A stretch of 64,000 bases of DNA from a virus, in the IMG/VR virus record IMGVR_UViG_3300019360_000007, positions 1 through 64,000 of that record; one strand, given 5' to 3'. Below, piece after piece: positions 1 through 61,141 of the stretch. The notes beneath the pieces were generated by a model. It made no database searches. It worked only from the letters and a program-made list of their open reading frames with translations, and was not told the origin of the DNA. Both the position numbers and the translations under genes were made by a program. How positions within the stretch are numbered: the first letter of the stretch is position 1; every line of letters starts with the position of its first letter.

Positions 1-552
1 CTCGTGCTGCTCTCCGAATCCCCACGCGGAGATGGGCCTGTCGCTGAAGTCGACCTTGGCGATGACCTCGACGACGGCCTCGGTGAGCAGGGTGAGTCCC
101 TCCTGCACGGTCTCCTCCGTGGCGCCCTGGAGAAGCAGGACGATCATGCGCCGAAGGAACTCGCGGTAGGTGAGATCGCCATCTACTTCGGGAGGACCGA
201 CAGGGGCCTTGCGCAGGTTCGGGAAAACCAGCGTCCCGATCATCTGCCAGATAAATTCTGGCCTGGCGAAGTCCACGTCCGACTCGAGGCTGATGTCCTC
301 CAGGGTGAGTTGTAGATTCGCGATCTGTTCTGCCGCCGCCTGGAACTGCAAGACATAGAATGGTCCCGGCACAGTCGAGACGTAGTTGGAGGGCAGCACC
401 TGCTGGAAAGTCCGAAGGACAGCGTCGACGACATCCCGACGTGTCCTGATCCCCTGCTGACCGGACACGGGAACGGGAGCAGGATTCTGCTCACGGGTGA
501 AAGGCAGATACGGCCGCTTGGGAATGATCGGAGGTTTCTTCTCGTCAACCAA
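1..552 (-). CDS. Baseplate-region protein, gpI position (partial, runs off the left edge)
   Basis: The reading frame starts at a TTG at 552 and stays open for 184 codons to the window edge. The TTG is chosen because a GGAGG ribosome-binding site lies 9 bases before it, and because it overlaps the TGA of the upstream gpJ-like gene by 8 bases, the usual junction style here. The protein begins MVDEKKPPIIPKRPYLPF and continues with amphipathic helices and an aromatic patch (ARPEFIWQMIGTLVFPN). No catalytic motif is visible. In P2-like and many large myophages the gene after gpJ encodes gpI or another baseplate wedge/fibre-connecting protein. That role is inferred only from position; I do not recognise the family from sequence. 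Confidence 0.75.
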   Translation of the reverse strand, partial: MVDEKKPPIIPKRPYLPFTREQNPAPVPVSGQQGIRTRRDVVDAVLRTFQQVLPSNYVSTVPGPFYVLQFQAAAEQIANLQLTLEDISLESDVDFARPEFIWQMIGTLVFPNLRKAPVGPPEVDGDLTYREFLRRMIVLLLQGATEETVQEGLTLLTEAVVEVIAKVDFSDRPISAWGFGEQHE

Positions 553-3500
553 GGCGCCTGTCCTCCGCGTAGGTGAACAGAAAATTCCCCGCCTTGAAGA
601 ACTCCAGCTCGCTGGCCTCGATATCCTGCACGCGGTCTTCGACCGAGGCCACGGTATATGTCACGGTGTAGGCATGGAGCTGTGGCCTGTCCTCAGCGTC
701 CAGCGAGACGAGGACTCTGTTCGCCGTCATCTGCTGTCGGATCGCCTGGATCTCAGCCGCGGTGTTGGCGGCCGGGAACTCGGACTGGATCGTCGCGTCA
801 TCGCTGAAGCTGGGGATGACGAGACCATCGTTGCCGATGAGGAAGGCGCGACCCGCCTGCTGGCTCAGGCTCTGCGGGTTCGACAATTGGAGTGTCATGG
901 AGAGATCGTCCTGGAAGACGCCCCGGAACAGGGAACCGTCACCGCCTCCGTTCGTCGTGGGGTTGTTGAGAGGGTCCTTGAGCAGCCAGGTCTTGACGGT
1001 GGTGGTCGAGTACGGGACGTCCGTGTTCCCGAGCAGGACCTCGACATCTCCCGAGGTGGAGGGCACGGACTCGCGAACGACGAGGGAACCCCCGGACCTG
1101 GCCAGCTTCGTCAGGGGGGACTGGACGTAGGACACGCCCCTCGTGTTGTCGATGACCGCGATGACGTCGCTCTGACGGACAGATCTGCCCATCGATAGCG
1201 CGCGGAGGAACGATGTCAGGTTCGTCCTCACGTTGGTGTCGACCGCGCTCACTCGGACTCCTTGCCGGACCACGACGGTTGCCGTGACGTCCGTCGGGAC
1301 AGGGACCGCGGCCTTGACGAGGACGTCCGCGGTGAGGTGCTTGCGCTCATCGACGGCTTCCTGGACGGTGGGGATGACGAAGTTGGTGTCGTACGCGACC
1401 GTGAAGTTCTCGACGTGCTGGTAGTCGACCAGGACGCTCTGACCGCTGGCGATCTGGCTGTTCGGCGTGCGTCTAATCGCCAGGGCGGACGTCTGCGTAC
1501 CCGGGACGATCAGGTAGTCGGAGATACCACTAGGATTTTCTGGGCCTCGGAACACCACGGTCCTGTCCAGGTTGAACACGGCGACCGTGAGCGGGTTGGC
1601 TCCTAGATTCAGGAGAAGCTCATTGAATTCGCCGATGAGGATGTGCTGCTCGCCGGACACTGCGATGAGACTGCCACTGGGGACTCCGTTGACCTGCACG
1701 ATGTCGATGTAGGACCGCGCGCGCACGGACCGGCCGTCGAGAAGCGGATCATCCGGCTGCACGAAGGTCCAGTTCTCCTGCGGAAGATTTCCAGAGATCT
1801 GGCCCGTGACGCTGACGACATCGATGACGGGTTGCCTGGGGAGTACGAAACGCGTCGAGGTGACGTATCTGTAGTCCCCCAGGAGGATGTTGCCGAGCGT
1901 CACGGTCGGCTGGCCCACGCCGTTGGACAGCTGGATCGTGTTGAAGTCGAGGATCTGGACGTCCGTGAGGTCGAAGAAGCTGCCCGTGGTGGCGTTGCGC
2001 AAACCAAGGCCGAGAGCAGGGTCGTCCAGCATCTCGGCTATGGGGTTGGACCCGGACAAGTTTGAATCGAGCGCCCTGAACACCAAGTCGAGCGGATTCC
2101 CGATGACCACGAACTGCACGTCCTCGGCAATCTCGAAGGTGAAGGCGAATGAGTCGGTGACCCGACCCCCAGACTCTCCCCTGACCCACACGTCGACCTT
2201 GCCTCCAACGTGCTTGTCGAAGTCTGTGTCAAAGTCTCTCTGCATGACGGCGTCCCCGGCAGACACGACGCGCGCGTCCTCGACCCCGGCGACGTCGGCG
2301 GCCACCTGGAGCGTCCCCAGCTCGGTACCGCTGTCGACCGCGGCCAAGGCTCGTCGGGCCCTGACGGACAGTTGGAGGTTGTTCTCTCGCGGCTGTCCGC
2401 CGAACGTGGGACTCCGGTTGGTGACGGACAGGCCGCTCAGGCCGCTGACAATGGTGCGGATCTGTCCGGCCCCGAGATTCCCGCTCGAGCCGGGCTGGAC
2501 CGCCTCGACAGGCACGTCGACCTGGAAGAATCCAGTGGCAGGATTGAAGAACGATGCGACGTTGTTGATCGGGATCGATGCGTCCGACGTGGTCGTGAAC
2601 TGGATCGACCCACTGGCGACGATGCTCCCGAGAGGGATGAAGAGGGTCGCCGTGGGAGTCCGCCTCGTGAAGAACGTGACGAACCCGCGCGCCCGAACTC
2701 CGGCCTTGCGGAACACGTTGTTGCGGCTGGCCAGCTGATCGAACGCCGCGTCGACGATCGCCTGGATCTCGTCCGGGTTGACGATCCCGAAGACCCTGCC
2801 GAGAGCCTGCTTGTAGACGGACCTGACGACGGGCGTGGACGACCCGTCTGGCTCGACGCCATCGATCTGCAGCAGAGTGTCGAACGACTGGACGCGGTAC
2901 GTGAAGTCGACGAGGAGTCTGAGGCGTGCCACCTCGTTGGAGATCGGATCCACGAACACGTCCCGGATGACAGCTCCGGGCTGGACCGCCAGCTGGGGCG
3001 TCGTTCGCGTGAGCGACGCGATGGTGTCCTGAACGATCTGAAGACGCGCGGGGGCAGGGAACGTGCCGACAGTGGCGTCGATCAAGACGGGCAATCCCAC
3101 AACCTCGGCCGAGAACGAGGACTCGATCTCCGTCTGCATGCCCTCGTCGAAGAAGATGGCCGTGGCGACATAGAACAGGGGTTCCGTGATGGGTGTACTG
3201 GCGAATTCGCCGATGGGCACCGTCGGAGGAGTACTGTTGGGCCCGAACTGGCGATTGTGCAGGAACGAGAAGAACCTGCGCGAGACGACAGAGGCGACCG
3301 ACAGAGTCGTCCTGATGGTGAAGGTCGTCTCCGGGACCTCGTAGACGACCGTGAAGTCCGTCTTGAGCAGGTTGGCCTGCTCCTGTTCCGTGATTGCCGC
3401 GGCCAGCTCGGGCGTGAGGACGATGTTCTCCAGGTTCTCGATCACGTCCGACGTACGCGTCTGGGTCTCTTGTACCTGGACGAACAGTGGATCGGCGGCC

Positions 3501-4090
3501 GGAGTCCCGTCAGGATTGGTCGCCACGGAGCTGTCCACCTGTGTGGACCCGATGTTCGTCGTCTCCTCGACGTTCTCGGCGTCGCTCACGGCATCGATGT
3601 TGACTCGCTGGTAACCGACTGCTCCTCCTCCCTGGAATCTCGACGCGTAGAAGTTGACGCCGCGGAAGCGCGAGTCAGCGACGCCCTCAACCCGTACGAG
3701 GACCGAGTCGGCTCGACGCTCGACGCTGACATTGGTCGGACGCGTGCCGATCAGTCCAATGTCGGAGTCCTGGACGAGCGTGACCTCCAGCCGGGCTGGG
3801 GCAGAGACGGCTCCCGCGAACGAGATGGAGCGTACCTCGATCACGTTGAGGCCAGCGGCGAGATCGAGGCCGTCCGGGAACGCGGCTGGGTTGGGGAACG
3901 AGAACGTGTTTCCCTCGAAGACGATCAGGTCTGGATCGGACGTGAACGGGTTACCGCGGATGCTGATCTGCATGTCCACGGTGTCGGCGTCCATGCTCCC
4001 CGCGAAGAAGCGGCTGACCATGGTCGTCGAGAAAATCGTCGTTTCTCGCGAGATGCCGTCTGGTCCTGCGATCTTCGGAGTGGAGACCAT
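545..4090 (-). CDS. Baseplate wedge protein, gpJ-like (Baseplate_J family)
   Basis: Protein of 1181 residues, ATG start. The middle (roughly residues 465-620) carries the signature of the baseplate J / T4 gp6 family: a beta-rich segment, then GNLGAGQIRTIVSGLSG, a conserved GG turn, and an Arg-rich helix (SVRARRAL) that leads into the wedge dimerisation region. P2 gpJ is about 300 residues, so this version is three to four times longer. It has a beta-rich N-terminal extension (residues 1-400) and a beta-rich C-terminal half. It lies 6 bases downstream of the gp25-like gene and overlaps the gpI-position gene, the classical W-J-I order. Expected role: a wedge subunit of the baseplate that carries the contraction signal to the sheath. 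Domain assignment is confident; the function of the extra segments is unknown. Confidence 0.85.
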   Translation of the reverse strand: MVSTPKIAGPDGISRETTIFSTTMVSRFFAGSMDADTVDMQISIRGNPFTSDPDLIVFEGNTFSFPNPAAFPDGLDLAAGLNVIEVRSISFAGAVSAPARLEVTLVQDSDIGLIGTRPTNVSVERRADSVLVRVEGVADSRFRGVNFYASRFQGGGAVGYQRVNIDAVSDAENVEETTNIGSTQVDSSVATNPDGTPAADPLFVQVQETQTRTSDVIENLENIVLTPELAAAITEQEQANLLKTDFTVVYEVPETTFTIRTTLSVASVVSRRFFSFLHNRQFGPNSTPPTVPIGEFASTPITEPLFYVATAIFFDEGMQTEIESSFSAEVVGLPVLIDATVGTFPAPARLQIVQDTIASLTRTTPQLAVQPGAVIRDVFVDPISNEVARLRLLVDFTYRVQSFDTLLQIDGVEPDGSSTPVVRSVYKQALGRVFGIVNPDEIQAIVDAAFDQLASRNNVFRKAGVRARGFVTFFTRRTPTATLFIPLGSIVASGSIQFTTTSDASIPINNVASFFNPATGFFQVDVPVEAVQPGSSGNLGAGQIRTIVSGLSGLSVTNRSPTFGGQPRENNLQLSVRARRALAAVDSGTELGTLQVAADVAGVEDARVVSAGDAVMQRDFDTDFDKHVGGKVDVWVRGESGGRVTDSFAFTFEIAEDVQFVVIGNPLDLVFRALDSNLSGSNPIAEMLDDPALGLGLRNATTGSFFDLTDVQILDFNTIQLSNGVGQPTVTLGNILLGDYRYVTSTRFVLPRQPVIDVVSVTGQISGNLPQENWTFVQPDDPLLDGRSVRARSYIDIVQVNGVPSGSLIAVSGEQHILIGEFNELLLNLGANPLTVAVFNLDRTVVFRGPENPSGISDYLIVPGTQTSALAIRRTPNSQIASGQSVLVDYQHVENFTVAYDTNFVIPTVQEAVDERKHLTADVLVKAAVPVPTDVTATVVVRQGVRVSAVDTNVRTNLTSFLRALSMGRSVRQSDVIAVIDNTRGVSYVQSPLTKLARSGGSLVVRESVPSTSGDVEVLLGNTDVPYSTTTVKTWLLKDPLNNPTTNGGGDGSLFRGVFQDDLSMTLQLSNPQSLSQQAGRAFLIGNDGLVIPSFSDDATIQSEFPAANTAAEIQAIRQQMTANRVLVSLDAEDRPQLHAYTVTYTVASVEDRVQDIEASELEFFKAGNFLFTYAEDRRLG

Positions 4091-4096
4091 GGTCGA

Positions 4097-5275
4097 TCAC
4101 CTCACAGCGATACCCGGGAGCGCCCTGGTTCTCGGATCGAGACCGAAGCCTTCCAGTCCCAGAGAGAGACCGTTGCTGCCGGCCAGGGCCGCAGTCCCGG
4201 GAGCCGCGAAGACGGTCGTAATCACGACGGGGACGTTGGACGCGTTGGACGCGACAATCTCGACCGCAAACACGGTCGGATCGAACTCGGAGGGGAAGGT
4301 GTTGATGGAGATGACCGACGCCAGCTTCTCCCGTGCCGTGATCTCCTGGAAACGCCCCTGGATGTCCTGGAGCCTCTGGTAGACCGAAAGCGCGGCGATG
4401 ACGTCCTCATTGACGGTCGCCGTCGTCCCGAGGAGCGCCTTGGTCCCGATACGAGTGAGAAGGATGCTCCCGTACTCCGGGTGGAACGGGTTCGATCGCT
4501 TGATGGTGCTAAGGATCTTAAGGACTCCCTGATTGAGCAGGTCCTCGTTCTGCACCGTCAACGGCCCCCCGCTGGCGGCGATCAGGTAGTCGTTCTCTAT
4601 CCCGAACGACTGGCATCGCCTGCACTCGGACTGGTAAGTGGTGTAGGAGACCTTGAACACCGGATTCTGTCGAACTGGCTCGCGAAACTTGGGGAAGCGC
4701 GTGGGCACGGTCCTGACGCTCTCCAGGCCTGGAGTCGATCGGACGATATCCCGCTCCGCAAAGTCCCAGGGGGGATAGACCTGTCGCCCGCGAGCCTGGG
4801 TCTGGAAGGTGAAGCCGAGAGCTTCGGCCGCGGCCCCATGAACGGAGATCCGAGACAGCCTCCCGACATCGGCGAAGTCAGTCACCAGGAGATGCCCTGC
4901 CCCGTCGTCCTCGACCTGGATGCGCGTGTTCGCATCTCGCAGCGCGGCCCGAACGGCGCGCACGACTTCGCTCGTCGGCACCCTCGTCCCGACAGGCAAC
5001 GAGATGTCCTGCGTCGCCGTGGTCCTGTTGGAGATCGATATCTCGTTCTCGTTCTTGAGGATCCTGAACGGCGCGCTGACTGTTCCCGCGAGCTGCGCCC
5101 GGCTGTGGAGACCCGCGGGTGGGATCGTCACCTCGTCGTTCGCGGTGATCCTGATGTGGGCCGAGGACGCCACCGGCTGGAGCGTCCGCAGCTCCATCCT
5201 GTCGGCGGCCAGCGGAACCTCCTCCTCGACCGTGAGGTGGGGGCAGGCGTGGGCCAGCTGGAAATCGAAACTCAT
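4097..5275 (-). CDS. Baseplate wedge protein with C-terminal gp25-like domain
   Basis: Protein of 392 residues. The C-terminal third (about residues 255-350) matches the gp25/gpW baseplate wedge fold: NPFHPEYGSILLTRIG, then a helix with VYQRLQDIQGRFQ, then a beta strand pair ending VFAVEIVASNAS. T4 gp25 is only 132 residues, so this protein carries an additional N-terminal beta-rich domain of about 230 residues. Between the two is a short Cys-x2-Cys segment (SECRRCQSFG, near residue 214), which might bind a metal. It sits directly before the gpJ-like gene, the conserved neighbour of gp25/gpW. In known contractile systems gp25 initiates sheath polymerisation on the baseplate, so it should contact the unusually large sheath encoded at 42.5-50 kb. 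The start is the first ATG after a 30-base gap. Confidence 0.8.
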   Translation of the reverse strand: MSFDFQLAHACPHLTVEEEVPLAADRMELRTLQPVASSAHIRITANDEVTIPPAGLHSRAQLAGTVSAPFRILKNENEISISNRTTATQDISLPVGTRVPTSEVVRAVRAALRDANTRIQVEDDGAGHLLVTDFADVGRLSRISVHGAAAEALGFTFQTQARGRQVYPPWDFAERDIVRSTPGLESVRTVPTRFPKFREPVRQNPVFKVSYTTYQSECRRCQSFGIENDYLIAASGGPLTVQNEDLLNQGVLKILSTIKRSNPFHPEYGSILLTRIGTKALLGTTATVNEDVIAALSVYQRLQDIQGRFQEITAREKLASVISINTFPSEFDPTVFAVEIVASNASNVPVVITTVFAAPGTAALAGSNGLSLGLEGFGLDPRTRALPGIAVR

Positions 5276-37645: not shown

Positions 37646-38290
37646 CTATAGCCTGGCAAGCGAGACCAGCCAGCGGCGGGCAATGCGCGCGGCCACGCCC
37701 TCCGCGGCTCGCGGAGAGTCCCCAGGACCGGCACCTTCGCCCCTCGCCGCCCTCGCCAGCGGGTTGCCTTCCACGAGCCTCCAAGCCTCCAGGGCTCGCC
37801 TCATGGCCTTCCGCTTCTCGGGGTCCTTCTCGGACCGCAGACGACGTGCCAGCTCGGTCGGCGGCACGTTAATGAAGGTGGCCAGCGAATCAGAAGATCC
37901 ACCTCTCGCGAGCGACGCCTCTCGCGCCGCGATCTGCCGCCGCAGGCCGGGATGCAGGATGTTCCAGTGGGCGCGGATCCAGGCGGCGTCCGCCCAGACA
38001 CAGGCGTCGTGCTCGCCGCACAGCGTCGGGGTCCATCCCACGTTCTCGCTCGTGGCCATGACCAGACAGTACGCTCCGTCGCGCGCCATCTCCAGGACAT
38101 CGTGCGGAGGCAGGTGTCCCGTCTCCTCCGCGAACTCCCTCTCCGCCGCCGCGAGCGGGGACTCGCCGTTCTCCAGGTGTCCTCCTGGAACGGACCAGAG
38201 CCCGACATCGTCGGCATCAGGCCCCGGTGCCCGTCGAACGAGGAGAACGACCTTCCCGTCAGTGAGCCAGAGCCCTGCGCGCTCGATCAT
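37646..38290 (-). CDS. Nudix hydrolase with C-terminal extension
   Basis: Protein of 214 residues. A complete Nudix box runs from G37 to L60: G37, E43, R51-E52-F53, E55-E56 and G58 match the G-x5-E-x7-R-E-U-x-E-E-x-G-U consensus, so catalytic and Mg-binding residues are present. Residues 1-130 form the Nudix fold. Residues about 140-214 are basic and helical (RRLRSEKDPEKRKAMRRALE) and not part of the usual domain; they may bind nucleic acid or a virion partner. Substrate cannot be told from sequence; family members hydrolyse nucleoside diphosphates linked to other groups (dNTPs, NAD, ADP-ribose, RNA caps). It lies with small unknown genes between sheath and tube, an unusual place for a metabolic enzyme. 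Confidence 0.85.
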   Translation of the reverse strand: MIERAGLWLTDGKVVLLVRRAPGPDADDVGLWSVPGGHLENGESPLAAAEREFAEETGHLPPHDVLEMARDGAYCLVMATSENVGWTPTLCGEHDACVWADAAWIRAHWNILHPGLRRQIAAREASLARGGSSDSLATFINVPPTELARRLRSEKDPEKRKAMRRALEAWRLVEGNPLARAARGEGAGPGDSPRAAEGVAARIARRWLVSLARL

Positions 38291-42531: not shown

Positions 42532-45500
42532 CTAACCTCCGAGATTCGAGCGCAGGTTGAACGTGATCACAATATAGAGCAAAGGAAAAATCGGTTGGTA
42601 GAATGCTTCCACCTCCACAACGGTGGGGTCGTTCGTTGTGCGCGCCTGGATGCCGGTGAACGCCGCGATGATCTCGGCGTTCTTGAGCGCCTTCATGGTG
42701 GTCGCGAGCTGGCCCTCGATCTCGGACAGGACGCCCGGCAGGAACTTGATGCCGATGAACCTGTCGAGGTCGCGCCGCGCTGCCCTCTGGACCTCGTCGG
42801 CGATGGTGATGACCGTCGGGAGCTTCGTGAGGATGTTCGTCGGATCGGTCGTGAGTCCCTGCCGGACCCGGATGACCGTCCCCCGCTGCTCCATGACGGT
42901 GACGCCCTGCACGGCGACCTGGTTCTGCTCGACCGCGTCGAGTTTGCGGGCCAGCTCGTCGAACCCGACGATCCGAGCCCTCGTCCACGGGGTCGCCACG
43001 TCGATGTTCGGCGACGCCCTGTTGCCCGCCATGGCGGCCGCGAGGTAGGTACCGTCCACCAGGAACTGCTTGAAGTTCCCGAGCGCGTCCTGGATCGTCA
43101 GGGTGACGATGTCCGGGTACACGAGGCGGATGCGCGTGTTCTCGATCTGCTGCGCGATCCCGCCGACTTCCGTGGGCTGCGTGCCCGAGGCCACGCCGAT
43201 GATGCCGGTCCGCTCGGCGCGGAACCGGATGCTGGACTGGATGTCGCAGTGGTTGCTGAGCTGGAGGAACAGGTCGATGTCGTCGCCCCGCATCGGGGTG
43301 ATCGTGTCGAGCACCGCGCCTCCAGGCAGAGAACCGCGCAGGTCGTTGAGCGCGTCGCTGTAGCTCTGCGTGCTCGCCTGGTTGCTTCCCGGGATCTTCG
43401 GCACCTGCTTGATGCCGAGGACCACGGCTCCGTTGAGGAACGCCAGGAACGCCGCGAGGGAGACCTGGTTGTCCGGCGTCGTGTCCCCGTAGTTCCGCTC
43501 CACGGCCCTCTGGCTCGTGAAGAGCATCGTCTCGAAGTCCGCCGCCGTCTTCGCGTAGTTGTAGGTGATGAAGTAGGAGTCCCCGACGGCGGGCTCCTGG
43601 CCCCCGCGGTCGAAGGTCTCGACGATGGCCGTGTCGCCCTGCGGGATCGACGATCCCTCGGTGTTCGCCACGATCAGCTCGAGCCCGGAGATCGAGTTGA
43701 CCGGGATGTTCGCGTCGGTCGTGACGAGCTTGCGCACCTGGAACGTGAACGAGGCCCCGGCCCCCGTCGGGTAATCGGCCCCGCCCGTGCGCGGGAGAAT
43801 CGTGAACACGAGACCCGTCACCGTGTCGCGGTAGCTCTGGCTGATCATCCCGTCCTGGCCCACGCCGCTGTTGAAGCACGACGTGTTGGCCGAGCCCGAC
43901 CCGTCGACGGGGTCGCTGCTCGTGACGAAGAAGCCCTGGAACCCCGACTCTCCCGCGGCGCCCTGGCCTGACGTGACGCCGAGGCCCGTCCCGGTGAGCA
44001 GCCAGTCAGCCGTGGTCGCGGTCTCGAACAGGATGTTCGACGAGGACCCGAGCCCGACGATGTTGTTGGCCTGGCTCTCGATGAACAGGAACTCGTTGTT
44101 CGCCGAGTCGCGCTCGACTCCCGCGAGTGCCTGGGCCGCGAACCACGTCAGGTCAGGCATCTGGTAGTCGAGGATGGCCCCGTTGATCGTCGAGCTGTGG
44201 TGCATCATCAGCGCGGAGGCCACGAGCTCGGGATCGACCGTCGAGCGCGCCGCGGTCGCGCCCTCGGAGAACCCGAGCACGTTGTTGGCATTGCCGTTGC
44301 CGAGGGTGATGGCCGAGTTCGTGGTCACGATCCCGCTGACGAGGCGGATGCCGGCACCCTCCTGGGCCACCACGGAGGCCGGGAGACCGGCCCCGACCGC
44401 GGCGTCCTGGATCTGCTTGAGCACCGTGTTCGGGAACGTGATCGGTCCGAGCGGCACGTCGGCCTGTCCGGCCGCCGGGATCGCCGCGCCCACCGAGTCC
44501 TTGAAGACGACGGTGAACGCGGTCCCGTCGATGTTCACCTTCCAGACGTTGTTCTGCGGGTTCACGCCGCCCGACCCGTAGAAGCGCACGCGAGGCTGGC
44601 CATCGCGAGCGTCAGCGAAGGTACCGGCCGGGACTTGGCCGTCCTTGAAGCCGACCTCTCCGAACAGGGACGCGGGACGCAGCGTGGCCTCGATCCCGGC
44701 GAGGCCGACAGCCTTGGGCTGCAGGCCCGTCTCCGTGACCGCGTTCGTGCCCTGCGTGATCAGGCTCGTCTGCGCGACCTGGCTCTGCGGCTCCAGCGAG
44801 CCGGAGCCGGGGAGGACGCGGTTGCGCATGATGATCCGGTCGTAGATGAGCCGTCCCGACGTTCCCGACACCGTGAAGCGGCGCGCGATGTCGCCGTCCA
44901 CGATCTTGGTCTGCTCCTGGCTCGGCAACGCGTCCGTGGACAGGCCGCAGATGATGGCGAAGTCCTCCGCGACGGTGGCGCCGTCGAGGAATTCCCAGAC
45001 GCCTCCGCCGAGACCGGAGCCTCCCGTGAGTGTCGCGCCCGATACCGGCAGGCGGATGGCGGTCGAGCTCGCCAGGGTGATGAAGTTGCCCGTCGGACCG
45101 GGCACCGCCGCCGTGATGTCGACGACGGCCGAGGTGCCGCTCGAGTTGTCCGCGGTCACGATACCCACGAGCCCGTTCAGCGCGTCGGAGATGGCTGCCA
45201 CGAGGGACGACGCCACCTGCACCGTCGTCGCGCCGCCCACGAACGTCGCTCCCGAGACGGGCAGGCGCACACCGGTCGACGAGGCAATCGTGTAGGTGTT
45301 GCCGATCACGCCGGGCGTGTCGGACCAGACGGTCACCGTGGTGCTGGTGCCTCCCGCGTTGTCGGCCGACACCGCGGCCGCCAAGCCGTTGCCGAGGTCG
45401 TTGATGGCGGCCACGATGCTGCTCGCGACCGTGAGGTTCGTGCCCACGCCGCCCGCCAGCGTCGGACCGCTCCGGATGAGCCTCGTCGCGCTGCTGCTCG

Positions 45501-48500
45501 CGAGGACGATGGTGTTGCCGGCGTTCCCCGGCGTGACGGCCGTGATCGTCACGACCGCCGCGACGACACCGGTGAACACGAGGGCGGGGAGAGACGCCGT
45601 GATCGACGCCCCGAGCGAGGTGGCGACGGTGGTGTTGTCGCCCACGCCACCGAGCAGCGTGCCCGCCGAGAGCGTGATCCTCGTGGCACCAGTCGACTCC
45701 ATCAGCAGGATGCCGTTTCCGACGGTCCCCGGCGTGAAGGACATGATCGTGACGACGTTGCTGGTGCCGCCCGCGTTGGTCGCGACGACTCCTCCCACCA
45801 GACCGTTGCCCGCGTCGGCGATGGCTGCCACGAGACTCGTGGCGGCCGAGATGTCGTCGCCCACGCCTCCCGTGAGCGTCGCGCCGGAGAGCACGAACCT
45901 GCCCGCGGCGGTCGTGCTGAGCGTAATCGTGTTCCCCACGGCTCCCGGCGTGACGGCCGTGAGGACCATGGTCGTGGCCCCCGAAGACGTCGCGGTGACG
46001 TCCACGGCGAACGAGTTGGCGACGTCGTTGACGGCCGCAATCGCGTCGTCGCGCGCGGACGTGTTCGTGCCCAGGCCGCCCGCGAGCGTCGCGCCGGCGA
46101 AGGTGAGGCGCGCCGGCGCGGTCGACACCGTGGAGATGGAGTTGCCGCCGGTCCCGGGCGTGATCGCCCGGAGGTCCACCGTGGCCGACGTGCCGCCCGT
46201 GTTGTGCGCCTGCACCGTGCTGGTCAGGCCATTGAGAGGATCGAGGATGGCCGCAACGATGGCGGTGGCCGTCGTGATCTCGTCGCCGACGCCGCCGGCA
46301 AACGTCGCGGAGATCGTGACGGTGCCGTCGGAGGACAGGTTGGCCACGGCGTTCGCCGCCATGCCCGGCACCGTCCACGTCACCGTGACGTCGTTCGGAC
46401 CGGGGCCGACCGCCGCGCTCGAGAACGCGGCGAACGAGTTGAGCGGGTCGTTGAGGGCGGCCGCGATGTCGGCGGCGATGGCCGCCGTCGTGCCCAGCGT
46501 GTTGTCGTAGTCGTTCGCGCCCGGAGTACGAGGACCGCCGGCCGGGACGAGGACGTACGGACCACCCGCGATGGCGCCGGTGTCGATGGTGATCGTCGCC
46601 GACGAGGGGGAGGCCGTCACCGTGATCGTCGCCGTCGCCTGGGTGCCAGCATCGAAGTTCAGTCCGCCCGGCGTCGTAACGTTGTCCGCCGTGAGCGGGA
46701 TGCCGGCGATGGTGATCGTGTCCCCGTAGAGCACGCCCGTGCTCGGGAGCGCCGTGGTGACGACGGTCAACGTGCTGAGAGCACGCACGCCCGCGAAGAA
46801 GTCGTCCGCGCCCGAGGTGCGGGCGACGTCGACGGGAGTCAGCACGTTGCCGTTGAGCGTGAGCGTGTCCGCGGCGACGACCGGGTACGGGGCCGCCGAG
46901 GCCACCCGGACGCCGCTGAACCCGACGGTTCCGGTCGCGGCCGTGCCGACGTTGAAGTCGAGGCCACCCGGCGTCAGGGTGTTGCTCGCCGTGAGGGTCA
47001 CGGGGCCGCCACCGACGACGGACGTGTCGATGGTGATCGTGTCCCCGTACTGGACGCCCATTAGAGTGGCCGTGCCCGACGCACGGGTGCCGACGTCGAA
47101 CTCGTTCGCCGCCGGTGCCCCCGAGACGCCGAGGAACACTTGGCCGTCCACGGTGACCGTGTCGCCTGGGATCGGCCCGGCGACGGTGATGGTGCCCGTC
47201 GCGCGCGTGCCCTCGTTGAAGTTCAGGCCGCCCGGCGTCTGGGCGCCGGCCGCCGTGATCAGGACAGGTCCGCCGCCGGCATCGATGGTGAAGGTGTCGC
47301 CCGGCTGGACGCCCATCGGCATGAGCGTCGCGCGTGCTTGGCCCGTGTCGAAGTTCTGCGCGCCCGAGATCTGCGCGAGATCCCCCGTCAGGGTCACGCC
47401 GTCGATGGTGACGGTGTCTCCGAGAACCGCGAGGGCCGAGGTCACGGTCCCGGTGGCGAAGGTGCCGAGGTCGGTCGGGGTCGCCGAGAACGTGAACCGC
47501 ATGCCTCCGTCGGCGTTCGCCGTGCACGTGATGTCCATGCCGGAGAAGCTGGCGGGGAGCGCCCCGATGGCCGTCTGGAGCGCGGAGTCGACCGCCGCCG
47601 CCATGGTCGTCGGCGACGTGTAGGTTCCCGGGGCGATGGTCGCCGTGACGGGACCCGTGGGTCCGTTGGTCACGCCGGTGTAGTTGAAGACGAGCTTGTC
47701 GTAGCGCCCGGCCGTGATCACCGTCGACCCGAGGAACCTCGTCGTCCCGTCGAGGAAGGGGTTGTTGGCGACGAGCTTCGCCTCGGCGTTGATCGCCTCG
47801 ACGTACGCGTCGGCGTTCACCGCCGTCTGCGAGGGCACCGTGACGGTGACGACGACGCCGTCCACGGTGAACGACACGTTGTCGTTGATCCCGCTGAGGA
47901 TGTCGTAGGTCGTCTTGCCGGAGTCGTCGGTGTACTGGATCTCCTCGCCGAGCAGGCTCGCGTAGAACCCGAGCCCCTGGATCCCGTGCGGGGCGGAGAG
48001 GTCGATGCCCGCCGCTCCGCCCGCCAGCGCGCTGCTGTCGATGGTGAAGCGGGCCCGGTCGGACGCACCCGAGACGAAGAAGTACGGGCCGGCGCCCGGC
48101 ACCGTGAACTTGGCGATGGTCGCGTCCTTGTCCGCGAACTGGACCGTGACTGTCTCCTCGACCGGCCCCTGCGTGCCGCCCTCGAAGTGAACGTCGGGCG
48201 TGAGCTCGCTGCCGGAGGGGAATTCGATGGTCACGCCCGTGAGCGCGGGACCCTTGCTCCCGAACTTCGGCGTGTAGATCGGGTTGCCGTTCTTGTCGAA
48301 CAGGAAGTACGTGCCGATGCCCGACGGTCCGCTGGTCTCGACCTGGACCGTGTACTCCTCGTCGACCATGATGTTGTACCAGAAGGTCGCGAAGACGTCG
48401 GCACCCACGGGAACCGGGTTCTCGAGCGTGATGATCGTCCCCTCGACCTTGGTCACCGACACGGCGCCCCGGTTGAGCGCGTCCTCGATGCCGAACCCCC

Positions 48501-49974
48501 AGAACGCCTGGACCAAGTTCGGGTTGTTGGTCGGCAGGTCGATGCGGGTGTTCGAGACCGAGAGGAACACGTCCTGCCCGAGCGGCGTGTCGCGCCCGTT
48601 GCCCGTCGTCGGCTGCGCGGGGAGACGGAACTGCGTGCGGCTCTCCACGGCGGGAATCACCGTGTCGACGACGACGACCTCCGTCGGCGCCATGAACCAG
48701 CGGTTGTCGATCAGGAGGGCCGAGATCTGCGTGGGCCCGAAGGGCGGAGCCCCCGGAGTCGTGATCCCGGGCGAGATCAGGAAGGCGGCTCCCCAGACGA
48801 TCAGGTCGTCCTTGAGAACGAAGTCCGCGCCCTCGATGAAGTCGTTGTTGCCGGGCACGATGCCGCAGCGGATGACCTCCGTGACGTTGATGTTCGCGAG
48901 GTAGTCGAACGTGTCCTGCCAGGTGTTGAAGAAGTATTGGATCGTGACGGTGTCGCCGACCGCCGGGGCGAAGGGCAGCGTCACGGCCCTGTTCTGGCCG
49001 TCGACCTCCGTCGGGATGACCTGGACCGAGTTGACGCGCACGGTCACCTTCGACGTGTCGGTCGTGGTGATGCCGCCGTTCGAGCCGTCGACGATAGGCC
49101 CGTTGAAGGTGAAGAACGTGCGGTTCCGACGCGTGTTCTGGTTCTGCGTGAAGCCGAGAACCGAGTTGGCCGTGCCGTTCCCGATCAGGAGACCGTTGTC
49201 GGCGACGAGGCGCACCGCCGTGAGGCCGAAGTTGTTGGTGTAGGTCGACGCCACCAGCGACGTGCCGGCCGCGGCCCCGTTGATCAGGGAGACCACCGTG
49301 GCGGCCGTGACGCTGCCGGTGGGGAACGTGGCGGTCACGACCTGCTGCGTAGTTGCCGACTGGTCGAAGTCCACCGTCACGAGGAACTGGTTGTTGGAGG
49401 AGGTGAACTCGTAGGCGTTGCCGATGGCCCCGTCGAGGATCGCTCCTTGCGTGGACACCTGGTCGGACAGGTTGTCCGTGATCTGCGTGTCGGTCCGCTT
49501 GAAGAAGTAGGTGACCCGGACGTCGTCGCCGAAGTCGGGCGCCGTGCTGATCTCGATCACGCCGATGTCGGCGCGGGCCACGCTCAGGACCACGTCGGGG
49601 CGACCGTTGATCGTGACCAGGATCGAGCTGGGGTCCGTGGCCGTCTTGCCGGAGCCTGACCCGTCCGTGATCGGGTAGTTGCGGACCCGGATACGGCGGC
49701 GCTCACCGTTGAAGTCGCCGAGGATGACCTCGCCGGTCATCGTGATCTCGACGACCGCGCGACCGGTCTCGTCCTCCTGGGGGACCTGCTGGTCGACCGA
49801 GCTGCTCGATCCGCGGATGACCTCCAAGTCTCGCTGCTGGAGCAGCTCGTTGCCCGTCCCGATGAGCACCGGAATGCGGACGCCCGCGAGGACGCCGGAG
49901 ACCGGCGAGTCGAACAGGGTTCGGGTATAGACGCCAGGTGGCGCGTAAATGGTCCCAGGAAAATCCGCGGGCAT
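42532..49974 (-). CDS. Giant tail sheath protein with repeat insertion (2480 residues)
   Basis: A continuous 2480-codon frame; ATG preceded by AAGGAAGC. The N-terminus is sheath-like: GTIYAPPGVYTRTLFDSPVSG, then VRIPVLIGTGNELLQQRDLE. The C-terminus is the conserved sheath interlocking domain: ATPWTRARIVGFDELARKLD, VTVMEQRGTVIRVRQG, ARRDLDRFIGIKFLPGVLSE, AFYQPIFPLLYIVITFNLRS. Known sheath proteins are about 380-720 residues. Here the two ends are separated by beta-rich insertions: residues about 150-830 of mixed domains, seven short GDTxTID repeats (about 840-1160), seven 70-residue repeats (about 1160-1660), and further domains to about 2170. A motif NxVLGF appears twice (near residues 280 and 1890). 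Insertions probably decorate the sheath surface, as smaller insertions do in T4 gp18. No frameshift or stop interrupts the frame. The sheath surrounds the tube and contracts on infection. Confidence 0.88.
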   Translation of the reverse strand: MPADFPGTIYAPPGVYTRTLFDSPVSGVLAGVRIPVLIGTGNELLQQRDLEVIRGSSSSVDQQVPQEDETGRAVVEITMTGEVILGDFNGERRRIRVRNYPITDGSGSGKTATDPSSILVTINGRPDVVLSVARADIGVIEISTAPDFGDDVRVTYFFKRTDTQITDNLSDQVSTQGAILDGAIGNAYEFTSSNNQFLVTVDFDQSATTQQVVTATFPTGSVTAATVVSLINGAAAGTSLVASTYTNNFGLTAVRLVADNGLLIGNGTANSVLGFTQNQNTRRNRTFFTFNGPIVDGSNGGITTTDTSKVTVRVNSVQVIPTEVDGQNRAVTLPFAPAVGDTVTIQYFFNTWQDTFDYLANINVTEVIRCGIVPGNNDFIEGADFVLKDDLIVWGAAFLISPGITTPGAPPFGPTQISALLIDNRWFMAPTEVVVVDTVIPAVESRTQFRLPAQPTTGNGRDTPLGQDVFLSVSNTRIDLPTNNPNLVQAFWGFGIEDALNRGAVSVTKVEGTIITLENPVPVGADVFATFWYNIMVDEEYTVQVETSGPSGIGTYFLFDKNGNPIYTPKFGSKGPALTGVTIEFPSGSELTPDVHFEGGTQGPVEETVTVQFADKDATIAKFTVPGAGPYFFVSGASDRARFTIDSSALAGGAAGIDLSAPHGIQGLGFYASLLGEEIQYTDDSGKTTYDILSGINDNVSFTVDGVVVTVTVPSQTAVNADAYVEAINAEAKLVANNPFLDGTTRFLGSTVITAGRYDKLVFNYTGVTNGPTGPVTATIAPGTYTSPTTMAAAVDSALQTAIGALPASFSGMDITCTANADGGMRFTFSATPTDLGTFATGTVTSALAVLGDTVTIDGVTLTGDLAQISGAQNFDTGQARATLMPMGVQPGDTFTIDAGGGPVLITAAGAQTPGGLNFNEGTRATGTITVAGPIPGDTVTVDGQVFLGVSGAPAANEFDVGTRASGTATLMGVQYGDTITIDTSVVGGGPVTLTASNTLTPGGLDFNVGTAATGTVGFSGVRVASAAPYPVVAADTLTLNGNVLTPVDVARTSGADDFFAGVRALSTLTVVTTALPSTGVLYGDTITIAGIPLTADNVTTPGGLNFDAGTQATATITVTASPSSATITIDTGAIAGGPYVLVPAGGPRTPGANDYDNTLGTTAAIAADIAAALNDPLNSFAAFSSAAVGPGPNDVTVTWTVPGMAANAVANLSSDGTVTISATFAGGVGDEITTATAIVAAILDPLNGLTSTVQAHNTGGTSATVDLRAITPGTGGNSISTVSTAPARLTFAGATLAGGLGTNTSARDDAIAAVNDVANSFAVDVTATSSGATTMVLTAVTPGAVGNTITLSTTAAGRFVLSGATLTGGVGDDISAATSLVAAIADAGNGLVGGVVATNAGGTSNVVTIMSFTPGTVGNGILLMESTGATRITLSAGTLLGGVGDNTTVATSLGASITASLPALVFTGVVAAVVTITAVTPGNAGNTIVLASSSATRLIRSGPTLAGGVGTNLTVASSIVAAINDLGNGLAAAVSADNAGGTSTTVTVWSDTPGVIGNTYTIASSTGVRLPVSGATFVGGATTVQVASSLVAAISDALNGLVGIVTADNSSGTSAVVDITAAVPGPTGNFITLASSTAIRLPVSGATLTGGSGLGGGVWEFLDGATVAEDFAIICGLSTDALPSQEQTKIVDGDIARRFTVSGTSGRLIYDRIIMRNRVLPGSGSLEPQSQVAQTSLITQGTNAVTETGLQPKAVGLAGIEATLRPASLFGEVGFKDGQVPAGTFADARDGQPRVRFYGSGGVNPQNNVWKVNIDGTAFTVVFKDSVGAAIPAAGQADVPLGPITFPNTVLKQIQDAAVGAGLPASVVAQEGAGIRLVSGIVTTNSAITLGNGNANNVLGFSEGATAARSTVDPELVASALMMHHSSTINGAILDYQMPDLTWFAAQALAGVERDSANNEFLFIESQANNIVGLGSSSNILFETATTADWLLTGTGLGVTSGQGAAGESGFQGFFVTSSDPVDGSGSANTSCFNSGVGQDGMISQSYRDTVTGLVFTILPRTGGADYPTGAGASFTFQVRKLVTTDANIPVNSISGLELIVANTEGSSIPQGDTAIVETFDRGGQEPAVGDSYFITYNYAKTAADFETMLFTSQRAVERNYGDTTPDNQVSLAAFLAFLNGAVVLGIKQVPKIPGSNQASTQSYSDALNDLRGSLPGGAVLDTITPMRGDDIDLFLQLSNHCDIQSSIRFRAERTGIIGVASGTQPTEVGGIAQQIENTRIRLVYPDIVTLTIQDALGNFKQFLVDGTYLAAAMAGNRASPNIDVATPWTRARIVGFDELARKLDAVEQNQVAVQGVTVMEQRGTVIRVRQGLTTDPTNILTKLPTVITIADEVQRAARRDLDRFIGIKFLPGVLSEIEGQLATTMKALKNAEIIAAFTGIQARTTNDPTVVEVEAFYQPIFPLLYIVITFNLRSNLGG
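44990..46480 (-). repeat. Seven tandem ~70-residue repeats in the sheath protein
   Basis: Each unit of 68-75 codons ends with a strand-turn-strand signature: GNTITLSTTAAGRFVLSGAT then LTGG; GNTIVLASSSATRLIRSGPT then LAGG; GNTYTIASSTGVRLPVSGAT then FVGG, and similar. Each begins with a helix such as ATSLVAAIADAGNGL. Unit ends fall near 46300, 46090, 45880, 45660, 45460, 45240 and 45015. The nucleotide sequences have diverged while the protein pattern is kept, so the array is not a recent expansion. Likely each unit is one small immunoglobulin-like or alpha/beta surface domain. Confidence 0.8.
46490..47460 (-). repeat. Seven short GDTxTID-type repeats in the sheath protein
   Basis: Units of about 36-60 codons share a core GDT(V/I/F)TIDG and an end such as TPGGLNFNEGTRATGTI or ANEFDVGTRASGTATL. 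Cores lie near 47415, 47295, 47155, 47040, 46860, 46710 and 46585. The last unit is degenerate (SATITIDTG). The repeat is shorter than the neighbouring 70-residue family and differs in sequence. It probably forms stacked beta hairpins leading out from the sheath body. Confidence 0.75.
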
Positions 49975-49975
49975 G

Positions 49976-50956
49976 TCAGCTTCCTTTCAGTGCGGCTCGG
50001 AAGGCGTCGAGGGAGATCCGCGTGAAGTGGAATCCGCGACACGGAGTTCCACGACGAATCGACTTGGCGACGGCATCGAAGGACAGGCCAAGGGCCTTGG
50101 CTGCTTCGGTCGCCGACGAAAAAACGGAACCGTCGGAGCGTCGGACGGGATTCGCGTTGCCTTCACGAATGCGACGCTTGTGTTCCTCGGTGAAGGCCTG
50201 TCCCGTATGGGCGGCAGACATCTTGGCGCGCGTCTCTTCCGATGGCACACGACCCGAATGGCTCGTGGACATTCGCGCCCTGCTCTCCGCGGAATGCCTT
50301 CGTCCCTTCCAGAAATCACCGCGCCCATTCTCCAAGTTGGCGAGCTGTCTCGCGGAGACCCCGCGAGCCTTGGCCGAGGTCGACATCCTCTTGCGCGTCT
50401 CCTCGCTCGCGACAACTCCGTCTCCGCCCTTGGTCAGGTTGTAACCATGCGCGCGCTCGGCCGAACGGTAGAGGGCGATATAGTGCCGCTCCCGTTCGTT
50501 GGCCTCGGCGAGGGTCGCGATTCCCTTCTCAAGCACTTCCCAGGCCATGGCGGGTCCGTACTTGCGAAGAGCCGCGGAGAAATGGCGACTCCTCGTGCGA
50601 GCCAGGTAGAGGTGCTCGATCTTGCGCTGGTCGAGACTGCGCCGCGTGATCCCGACGTAGACCTTCCCGCTGGGCGACGTGACCCTATAGACCACGTACG
50701 TCACGTCCGCAGGACGCTCCTTCCCGCTCGCGCTCGACTCGGAGGAGGAGCACGTCGCGTCGGGCCACGGGGTCGCCGTGGCGAGTTCGGTGGAGGTCTG
50801 GAGCATCGAGGTCGGCTGTTCGCTCGGGATCACTCCCGTCTGTCGGGCGCACTTCTCCTGCGAGCGCGTGACGCCCTGGGTGCAGTCGCGGATCGCGCTC
50901 GGTAGAGCGCCTTGGTTCACGTCTCCGTGCCCGTCTCCGTCGGTCTGTCGGTTCAC
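49976..50956 (-). CDS. GIY-YIG homing endonuclease with NUMOD3 repeats
   Basis: The open frame starts at a GTG at 50956 (326 residues), but the folded protein begins about residue 85. The catalytic GIY-YIG domain has VTYVVYRVTSPSGKVYVGIT (VVY...YVG in place of GIY...YIG), an Arg in LDQRKIEH, and a Glu in EANERERHYI, so key residues are present. Three NUMOD3-type units follow (SAESRARMSTSHSGR, SEETRAKMSAAHTGQ, TEEHKRRIREGN), then a C-terminal helix-turn-helix/NUMOD1-like segment (SSATEAAKALGLSFDAVAKS). A shorter start, GTG at 50704 with GGAAGGAG 13 bases upstream, would begin right at the nuclease domain and may be the true one; residues 1-84 are low-complexity. The stop overlaps the sheath ribosome-binding region: TGA lies one base before the sheath ATG. 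It is a mobile, free-standing endonuclease gene. Confidence 0.85.
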   Translation of the reverse strand: MNRQTDGDGHGDVNQGALPSAIRDCTQGVTRSQEKCARQTGVIPSEQPTSMLQTSTELATATPWPDATCSSSESSASGKERPADVTYVVYRVTSPSGKVYVGITRRSLDQRKIEHLYLARTRSRHFSAALRKYGPAMAWEVLEKGIATLAEANERERHYIALYRSAERAHGYNLTKGGDGVVASEETRKRMSTSAKARGVSARQLANLENGRGDFWKGRRHSAESRARMSTSHSGRVPSEETRAKMSAAHTGQAFTEEHKRRIREGNANPVRRSDGSVFSSATEAAKALGLSFDAVAKSIRRGTPCRGFHFTRISLDAFRAALKGS

Positions 50957-59561: not shown

Positions 59562-60455
59562 TCAGATGAGGGCGTCGAAGACCGAAGCCACGGCGTCTGC
59601 GATCTCCTGCCAGTGGTCCTGTCGTGCTTGGTAGGACTGATCGATCTGCACCCCTCCAGTCCCGCCAGATGTGATCCAGTTGGTCAGGTTGTCGGGGTTG
59701 TCACCGCCGAACTCGTCCTCGGCGGTGGCCACGCGGACAGGGATCGACGGGACGACGACGGCCGCAATGGCATCGCGAACCCGCTCCTTGAGCGACTGCG
59801 ACGCACCGCCGCCGATCAGGATCTCGCTGTCGGTGAACCCGTGGAAGGCCACCGCATACTGGAAGCCTCGACTGCCGATGGAGTCAAGGAGCGGGAACGA
59901 GCGCCGAGAGATCTCGGTGCTCGTGATGTGCCAGCGGTCGAAGGCGCCCCCTCCCGATCTCCAGCCCTTGCAGCGCCACGACGACACCCCCTTGGCTGCG
60001 AGCTGCGACGCCACCCTCTCGGCCTGATCGTCGGTCCAGTTCTCGAGGGCACCGCCGTGTGGAGCGAGCGCCACGAGGCCCGTGTGGATCCCGTCGTCGT
60101 CGAGGCGCTCGAGGAGGATATTGGCGTTGTCGTCGAAGAGCGCCGTCGTGGTCTCTGCGGCCTTCTCCCCGCCGTGGACGGCCACGGCGGCGTCGACCTC
60201 CGCCTCGTCGGCCGGCGGGATCGATGCCTCGACGAAGTTGATCGTCAGGTTGTCGTCTCCCGTCTCGACCGAGGTGAGCGTCACGCTCAGGCCGAGTGCC
60301 ACGATGTCGTCGTGGAGCTTGCGTCCCTCGACCTTTCCGTTGGCGGTGTCGTTGGCGATGCTGTACAGGAGGATTGCCATCAGAAGATCTCCATCACGAT
60401 GAGGCGCCTTTCCGTTGGCGGTGTCGTTGGCGATGCTGTACAGGAGGATTGCCAT
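59562..60455 (-). CDS. Appendage protein with poly-gamma-glutamate-hydrolase-like domain
   Basis: From the ATG at 60455 (overlapping the previous TGA) the product is 297 residues; from the ATG at 60380 it is 272. Both starts exist because a 75-bp tandem duplication copied the start region, so the first 25 residues (MAILLYSIANDTANGK...) repeat. Numbered from the second Met, residues 100-270 match the PghP/DUF867 zinc hydrolase family: LAPHGGALENWTD (H108, E113), HITST (H151), AFHGFTDSEILIGGG (H180), DNPDNLTNW, and GGVQIDQSYQARQ. These give the H-x4-E ... H metal site. Phage PghP cuts the poly-gamma-glutamate capsule; related enzymes may act on other gamma-glutamyl links. Residues 1-70 form a separate small domain, possibly for attachment. 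It closes the fibre-gene group, so capsule or surface depolymerisation by the virion is a sensible role. Confidence 0.78.
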   Translation of the reverse strand: MAILLYSIANDTANGKAPHRDGDLLMAILLYSIANDTANGKVEGRKLHDDIVALGLSVTLTSVETGDDNLTINFVEASIPPADEAEVDAAVAVHGGEKAAETTTALFDDNANILLERLDDDGIHTGLVALAPHGGALENWTDDQAERVASQLAAKGVSSWRCKGWRSGGGAFDRWHITSTEISRRSFPLLDSIGSRGFQYAVAFHGFTDSEILIGGGASQSLKERVRDAIAAVVVPSIPVRVATAEDEFGGDNPDNLTNWITSGGTGGVQIDQSYQARQDHWQEIADAVASVFDALI

Positions 60456-60483
60456 CAGAAGATCTCCATCACGATGAGGCGCC
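60332..60483. repeat. 75-bp in-frame tandem duplication across a gene junction
   Basis: Copies at 60332-60408 and 60407-60483 are identical over 77 bases (period 75). Each contains the last codons of the upstream fibre gene (on the minus strand, from GGCGCCTCATCG), the TGATGG stop-start junction and the first 16 codons of the enzyme gene. The copies have no differences, implying a recent event. 75 is a multiple of three, so reading continues through the first copy into the second. Confidence 0.95.
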
Positions 60484-61141
60484 GTTCCGTGAGCCTCGCC
60501 CGGGCCGTTCCTCCCAGGACGCGCCACCTGATCTCGTAGGTGTGCGACGCCTGCGTGGGAGCGATGTCGAGGAACTGGACAACCCCAGGACCGTCGGCGT
60601 TGCCGAGGAGGCCTAGAATACCGGAGACACTGAACTCCAGGGCCCGGACCGTGTCTGCGATCTGCGCGCCGTCATTGTAGAGGGTGATGAGGAACTCGTC
60701 TCCGTCCTGGACGTTGAACGTCCCGTGAAATAGAATCAGGACATCTCCTCCGTTGGGAGTCACCGTGCGCGTCATCTCGGGGATCACCACGAAGCTGGCG
60801 CTGGTGGTCGTCGGAGAGCTGGTTGTCCCGACCACTTGGCTCCTCACCGGAGCGCTCCCGACCATGAACACGCGTGCCCAGCCCGTGGTCGTCCCGTTCG
60901 TGTTGACCCAGAGCTGGCCGGTACCGGCCAGCGTCCTCTGGTAGACGTCGCCCTCGTTGCCCGCGAGGAGCGCGACGTTGGGGTCGGCGGTCCCGCGCTT
61001 GATGTTGTCCGCCGTGAGGATGCCGCCGCTCTGCAAGGTCAGATCGACGGACAAGACGATGCTGTCCGCTGCCACGTCCACGGTGCGGGGGAGCCCCGTC
61101 GTGTCGTCGTCGAGCAGGAGATTGTCGATTTGGCTGGCCAT
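60455..61141 (-). CDS. Fibre-like structural protein
   Basis: Protein of 228 residues. The N-terminus MASQIDNLLLDDDTTGLPRT is nearly the same as that of the 537-residue protein two genes upstream (MAGNQTDNLLLLDLTTGLPR), followed in both by ...LSVD. The body is beta-rich (LTLQSGGILTADNIKRGT; TGQLWVNTNGTTTGWARVFM; FHGTFNVQDGDEFLITLYND). The shared start is probably an attachment peptide to a common virion partner. The C-terminal half may form a jelly-roll. Its stop overlaps the start of the hydrolase gene. Likely role: head or tail fibre/decoration protein. Confidence 0.72.
   Translation of the reverse strand: MASQIDNLLLDDDTTGLPRTVDVAADSIVLSVDLTLQSGGILTADNIKRGTADPNVALLAGNEGDVYQRTLAGTGQLWVNTNGTTTGWARVFMVGSAPVRSQVVGTTSSPTTTSASFVVIPEMTRTVTPNGGDVLILFHGTFNVQDGDEFLITLYNDGAQIADTVRALEFSVSGILGLLGNADGPGVVQFLDIAPTQASHTYEIRWRVLGGTARARLTERRLIVMEIF

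Follow-up and report, generated by a model that had tools for sequence, protein, structure and literature searches.

A 2480-residue contractile tail sheath protein with a putative seven-domain arm in a clade of huge phages

The stretch of DNA analysed here (the window; 64,000 nucleotides, positions 1 to 64,000 of IMG/VR virus record IMGVR_UViG_3300019360_000007) carries a single open frame of 2480 residues on its minus strand which, judged by homology, is confirmed to be a contractile tail sheath gene. Its product is some five times as long as a usual sheath. Contractile tails are driven by their sheath, whose published extra domains lie on the outside (PMC9230969). How much cargo can a contracting sheath tolerate? 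Can a domain be amplified in nested halves? Both questions become directly testable through the clade of huge phages described here. It lengthens the known series of sheath sizes more than three-fold and provides intermediates (507, 1,204, ~1,650-1,885 and 2,480 aa), including a single-domain state at the exact site of the largest insertion. We lean, with somewhat better than even confidence, towards the protein being the main sheath subunit, expressed whole and carrying a nested seven-domain A/B arm in an outward loop. The wider proposal, a clade with ~250-kDa sheath subunits and nested split-half seven-fold arms, about 230 of which clad the tail, we regard as evenly balanced. We found no published sheath as large as this in a literature search that left out bioRxiv preprints altogether and most subscription journals.

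Identity and integrity of the sheath gene

The frame opens with an ATG at 49974, immediately preceded by a Shine-Dalgarno-like AAGGAAG, and closes with a stop at 42534-42532. Is such a long frame real? An intact sheath frame is also present in at least nine other contigs. The copy in a 151,955-bp contig is 92% identical across all 2480 aa and that in a contig of 618,736 bp (G004) is 77-78% identical, both without internal stops; additional intact IMG/VR copies measure 2480-2489 aa. An assembly artefact was rejected on account of these independent copies, and the single-frame 2480-residue protein proposed in the first-pass annotation is borne out. All regions of the gene are under purifying selection (dN/dS 0.04-0.34), with dN in the 820-residue cassette described below exceeding the core value by a factor of about two to three, so the insertion evolves faster; it is also acidic and poor in Lys and Arg. 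A Pfam scan of the whole protein showed no intein or splicing domain and the halves of the cassette turn up in other proteins as ordinary domains, which led to the rejection of an intein or other removable insert. The window's record is an 83,087-bp fragment, and the completeness of the relatives' records is not known. Genome contigs searched for sheath relatives yielded none, and thus no prophage or host clue.

The sheath core is made of aa 1-60 and about aa 2051-2480, both on one chain, and is 25-30% identical to the annotated sheaths of phage G, Bxz1-like phages and Tunturi_5. A tblastn search with aa 2040-2480 matched 219 records of cultured phages, the top annotated ones being tail sheaths of Tunturi_5, Phrappuccino and Bxz1-like phages; phage G gp178 was matched at E 1e-25, and the annotated sheath matches of the core span E 1e-25 to 1e-38. 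A profile of six cores matches the solved phi812 sheath (E 5.6e-12), and profile-profile comparison with Mu/Milano sheaths aligned 264 columns at 81% probability. The N-terminal 60 residues are 80-97% identical among long forms and 45-67% in shorter forms. Their tie to known sheaths runs via Tunturi_5, whose aa 8-60 align to aa 3-55 of the phage G sheath.

Why had these genes escaped annotation? PF04984 has no match in the window's record, and neither it nor PF17482 rises above the curated cut-off there. Pfam gave only a weak DUF4815 match at aa 2124-2145 and, in three relatives, PF17482 at the extreme C-terminus (E 1e-4 to 1e-3, below cut-off). The annotated Tunturi_5 sheath also falls below the Pfam cut-off, which shows the models to be too narrow to recognise sheath genes of this clade. 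A single-sequence PDB search with the sheath protein returned no match. Foldseek of a low-confidence C-terminal model ranked sheaths first (3lml, 5li2, 3j9q), non-significantly (best E 0.012), and gave no meaningful match for the N-terminal model. The sheath-like termini noticed at first reading are supported by the tblastn matches, the phi812 profile and the sub-cut-off PF17482 hits. A second, normal-sized sheath gene, which would have spoken against that reading, was not found in the genomes searched with the family profile, PF04984 and PF17482: G004 (completeness not known), LR745208 (485 kb) and Tunturi_5 (309 kb) have one sheath-family locus each, and in G004 it is the giant one.

Anatomy of the insertion and its repeats

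The divisions of the protein and the neighbouring genes are listed in the table. Aligned with the 1652-aa sheath of LR745208 (51% identity over aa 1-827, 49% over aa 1648-2477), the window protein has one clean extra block of 820 aa. This cassette is found in all long forms and is absent in all 1.65-1.75k-aa forms compared. The insertion as a whole stands in place of aa ~56-191 of phage G gp178. The outermost domain of the phage G sheath is 120-218 (PMC8570332), which the replaced stretch overlaps, so by homology the insertion site is outward-facing; that the insertion leaves the core through an outward-facing loop in this phage as well is inferred. AlphaFold models built from 14 sequences for aa 1-1200 and aa 1281-2480 separately, with cut points that put the A and B arrays in different models, reached an overall pLDDT of 39-42, and only local domains are usable. 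One of these, a beta-alpha domain at aa ~178-290, is confidently modelled (local pLDDT about 80-88). A 'VLGF' domain occurs twice, once in each flanking part of the insertion, the copies sharing 28.6% identity (E 2e-7).

Features of the sheath protein and of neighbouring genes in the window
Feature	Protein residues or size	Window positions	Strand	Basis or remarks
Giant tail sheath gene	2480 aa	42532..49974	(-)	predicted 252.8 kDa, pI 4.3
N-terminal arm and core start (PPGVYTRTLF...)	aa 1-60	49795..49974	(-)	identity among forms, Tunturi_5/phage G alignment
Outgoing insertion part	aa 61-827	47494..49794	(-)	common to 1.65-1.8k-aa sheaths
'VLGF' domain, outgoing copy	aa 186-284	49122-49419 (approximate)	(-)	
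820-residue cassette	aa 828-1647	45034..47493	(-)	absent from LR745208-type sheaths
Repeat family A, seven units	aa 845-1166	46477..47442	(-)	N-terminal halves of composite domain
Repeat family B, seven units	aa 1167-1658	45001..46476	(-)	C-terminal halves of composite domain
Returning insertion part	aa 1659-2050	43825..45000	(-)	carries second 'VLGF' domain; similarity to aa 186-284 at about aa 1795-1910
'VLGF' domain, returning copy	aa 1811-1913	44238-44544 (approximate)	(-)	
Conserved sheath core (body and C-terminal part)	aa 2051-2480	42535..43824	(-)	homology to known sheaths
Baseplate J / gp6-like wedge protein		545..4090	(-)	PF04865 E 5.8e-19; phrog_6 E 5.6e-31
Baseplate wedge, gp25-like region		4097..5275	(-)	phrog_2669 and phrog_43
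Beta-rich protein	3645 aa	9174-20111	(-)	adjoins baseplate genes; no PHROG match
Tail hub-like protein	1826 aa	23151..28631	(-)	by position; no PHROG match
Probable tape measure	1043 aa	30843..33974	(-)	position, charged helix-like sequence, hydrophobic segment; no profile match
Probable tail tube	263 aa	36764..37555	(-)	by position and conservation; no profile match
NUDIX hydrolase-like gene		37646-38290	(-)	within tail module, between sheath and tube
HNH-endonuclease-like gene	566 aa	40704-42404	(-)	just downstream of sheath
GIY-YIG-type homing endonuclease gene		49976-50956	(-)	phrog_314 E 2.9e-29; ends 2 bp from sheath start codon
Poly-gamma-glutamate hydrolase-like protein		59562-60527	(-)	phrog_4175 E 7.6e-24

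The two seven-unit repeat families claimed at first reading are present above shuffled controls: neighbouring units score z = 2.8-7.8 (A, units of 39-52 aa) and 5.2-16 (B, 66-73 aa) against shuffled units. Every complete long-class copy has exactly seven A followed by seven B, a count that never varies. Tandem repeats at the DNA level were looked for and are absent, so that reading was rejected and the repetition is old and at the protein level. Changes in A and B unit length showed no clear correlated pattern.

Are the families two different things? Both arrays exist as described, but A and B are halves of one domain. They form a contiguous A-B domain of ~110 aa in other proteins of these phages (a 1145-aa DUF4815-like protein, proteins of 961, 536, 524 and 346 aa, and a 1078-aa protein of LR745208), and a 713-aa protein (L086) has a tandem ABAB composite. 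On a composite profile built from the A-B domains of other proteins, window excluded, the A units fall at positions ~1-51 and the B units at ~42-112; the A7-B1 junction alone spans the profile from one end to the other (1-112, E 1.7e-13). With 50 shuffles, three matches reached domain E < 0.01; taken alone, the weakest A-unit matches therefore count little. A search with the B array or one composite (tblastn) found no match among cultured phages. The nearest family of the composite is phrog_28344, of unknown function. As side observations, a 361-aa frame in the same record (G000:C1:73253-73603, outside the window) carries a contiguous composite (E 2.5e-22), and the composite is spread over several proteins (L047 93-3527, L088, L089, L090, L092, L086), like a shared virion module.

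The composite also seems to resemble a known part of sheaths, the external sheath extension domain (SED) of Milano/Mu-type sheaths, which is aa 91-203 of Milano gp20 and one domain in the solved sheath (PMC10811340). Against PDB profiles its two best matches are tail sheaths at aa 92-177 (E 0.049 and 0.13), hhalign with the Mu/Milano-type external domain gave 90.5%, and two composite members match the phrog_165 tail sheath family (E 8.6e-4). In the search of solved structures the resemblance is a weak one (E 0.049), and most of it comes from the B half. Milano gp20 and Mu gpL have the same kind of nested outer loop with the SED in one copy, whereas the window sheath has a split-half, seven-fold amplification.

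Growth of the sheath within the clade

That the sheath of this huge-phage clade was enlarged stepwise is shown by the order of lengths on a tree of the core. The ladder runs from 507-581 to 1,204, then to about 1,600-1,885 and finally to 2,480-2,489 aa; on the tree the order is 507-581, 1,204 (Tunturi_5), 1,652 (LR745208), 1,750 and then the long class, which is split from the others with support 1.00. The tree is unrooted, and the cultured short-sheath phages are read as the outgroup. Published work had already found that extra outward sheath domains increase with genome size and that one- and two-domain sheath types measure 321-713 aa (PMC9230969). The first-pass annotation's figure of about 380-720 residues for known sheaths holds for most described ones, but not for the GenBank-annotated Tunturi_5 sheath of 1204 aa.

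What does each rung look like? At the short end, the sheaths of Bacillus phage G (gp178, 579 aa) and of Bxz1-like phages and Phrappuccino (581 and 507 aa) share a homologous core with the window protein (aa ~2080-2480, 25-29% identity) and, as in the window phage, lie beside tube and tape-measure genes, but their outer domain has ~100 residues against ~2,000 and there are no A/B repeats. The sheath of Tunturi_5 (gp326), a cultured Tunturiibacter phage with a 167-nm contractile tail (PMC11924767), has the same core and a homologous outgoing insertion part; it is half the length of the window sheath and has no A/B cassette. LR745208, an uncultured phage of 485 kb, and the 1.6-1.9k-aa huge-phage sheaths are collinear with the window protein before and after the cassette, at about 50% identity; they lack the cassette itself or have a single composite domain there or close by. 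A scan with shorter-form sheath sequences gave 129 relatives, of which 80 were kept, and all complete relatives with an identified N-terminus have at least 1,600 aa. One frame of only 1449 aa (L138, IMGVR_UViG_3300017989_000222) lacks the N-terminal motif and otherwise matches the 1800-aa forms; it is apparently broken N-terminally, possibly by a frameshift or an assembly error.

In the last step, a site with nothing or one ~110-residue domain became the 820-residue cassette. Sister sheaths of 1,775-1,882 aa carry a single composite at the cassette position, and in those of a 497-kb (L134) and a 372-kb (L159) contig its ends map to aa 841 and 1658 of the window protein. In two further sheaths (L106 and L108) the composite lies at a different position, so the domain has either shifted its place or been acquired repeatedly by these sheaths. 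One single composite (L105) is closest to A7 and to B7/B6, a likeness consistent with a native junction kept at A7-B1 and a native end kept at B7; the duplication route is unproven.

A proposed arm, its alternatives and the neighbouring genes

How might such a protein be arranged on the tail? In the model we favour, the aa 1-60 arm and the last ~430 residues would fold together as a standard sheath core around the tube, and about 2,000 residues would exit and re-enter through one outward-facing loop. The ancestral ~110-residue outer domain, with A as its N-half and B as its C-half, would have become A7-B7. Pairing would be nested, with A7/B1 at the tip, A6/B2 next and A1/B7 at the base, giving an arm of seven domains in which both ends of the chain come together at the surface of the sheath. 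A tail built from rings of six subunits would display about 230 of these acidic arms, which would swing outwards as the subunits rotate upon contraction. Most likely the arms would act as a dense outer coat that binds weakly and multivalently to the host envelope or to extracellular matrix. Such a tail-wide surface-layer or adhesive function is inferred without direct evidence, and lateral bracing of the sheath, the main alternative, is not excluded. Appendages cover the tail surface along its length in the whisker-bearing jumbo phages CBB, PhAPEC6 and Y3 (PMC5259590, PMC13282480). These appendages serve only as an analogy for how the arms may look, without a demonstrated sequence link, and a seven-domain arm is probably much shorter than the 119-nm whisker hairs, for which no gene has been assigned in CBB.

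The nested pairing itself is a putative arrangement, inferred from the units: A and B are halves of one domain, in the order A7-B7 and in equal counts, so the simplest fold pairs A_i with B_(8-i). T4 gp18 has a comparable nested order, with domain I inside II inside III (summarised in PMC8570332); the order A1..An B1..Bn and the equal counts of the window sheath match such an insertion, and the distance correlation is suggestive only. Comparing unit distance matrices, the nested mapping gives r 0.77 (rank 57 of 5040) and a direct A_i-B_i mapping r 0.00. Without A7/B1 the nested correlation drops to r 0.42 (rank 84 of 720), and it is not seen in the most divergent relative (L036).

The number of arms depends on tail length. 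In phage G a tape measure of 2893 aa goes with a 4500 Angstrom tail of 41.5 Angstrom rise (PMC8570332). By analogy, the 1043-aa tape-measure-like protein is inferred to give a tail of ~160 nm with about 230-235 sheath subunits, close to the 167 nm measured for Tunturi_5 (PMC11924767). At 252.8 kDa per subunit, the sheath would weigh about 59 MDa. The roughly one hundred subunits first assumed thus appear too few and about 230 likelier, with the caveat that the tape-measure-like protein was assigned by position and sequence character.

Could the same sequence mean something else? The A and B arrays might be two separate rods or solenoids on a sheath that is still made whole, a minority possibility. 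Each array is internally contiguous, tandem ABAB composites do exist in these phages, and the nested correlation is weak without A7/B1 and absent in L036. Yet all the other proteins found carry A and B as one contiguous domain, in the solved Milano sheath the corresponding SED region is a single domain (PMC10811340), and the 7/7 counts are equal in all complete copies. Expression without cleavage is likewise an inference; there are no protein-level data, and cleavage is not excluded. Jumbo phages process many virion proteins, as with the S/A/G-X-E protease of phiKZ (PMC13282480), and the faster evolution of the insertion would suit a precursor from which a phage protease clips it to leave a normal-sized sheath. 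We consider this unlikely: the insertion is under purifying selection with its length conserved over many contigs, and the core ends lie on one chain that excision would split in two.

The giant protein might instead be a minor sheath-like component, a terminal ring for example, with a diverged normal sheath elsewhere in the genome. The records are not known to be complete, and PF04984 misses this family, so another diverged sheath could escape too. Against this, which we hold quite improbable, the gene sits with tube, tape-measure-like and baseplate genes, three profiles find one sheath locus in G004, LR745208 and Tunturi_5, and the cultured phage Tunturi_5 does contract (PMC11924767). Almost no credence is left for a tail fibre or tape-measure-like protein with chance similarity at its ends, or for mis-assembly; the lack of a Pfam sheath match above cut-off is outweighed by the E values to annotated sheaths, the solved-sheath profile match and the independent intact copies, which already contradict such a reading. 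A whole sheath with a nested arm remains the interpretation that we prefer.

Downstream of the sheath gene lies a tail module with tube, tape-measure-like, hub- and baseplate-type genes. The tube candidate is 60-95% identical beside the sheath in huge-phage relatives and 39% in Tunturi_5. The 3645-aa protein is probably a giant baseplate or tail-side protein; it was rejected as the tape measure, being beta-rich rather than helical and next to the baseplate genes. With an HNH-like gene downstream and a GIY-YIG gene upstream, the sheath gene has a homing-type endonuclease gene on either side. The GIY-YIG gene is present at the sheath locus of the closest relative (L001) and was not found by tblastn at that of more distant relatives. 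A NUDIX hydrolase-like gene also lies within the module and, further away, the poly-gamma-glutamate hydrolase-like protein is perhaps a depolymerase against the host matrix.
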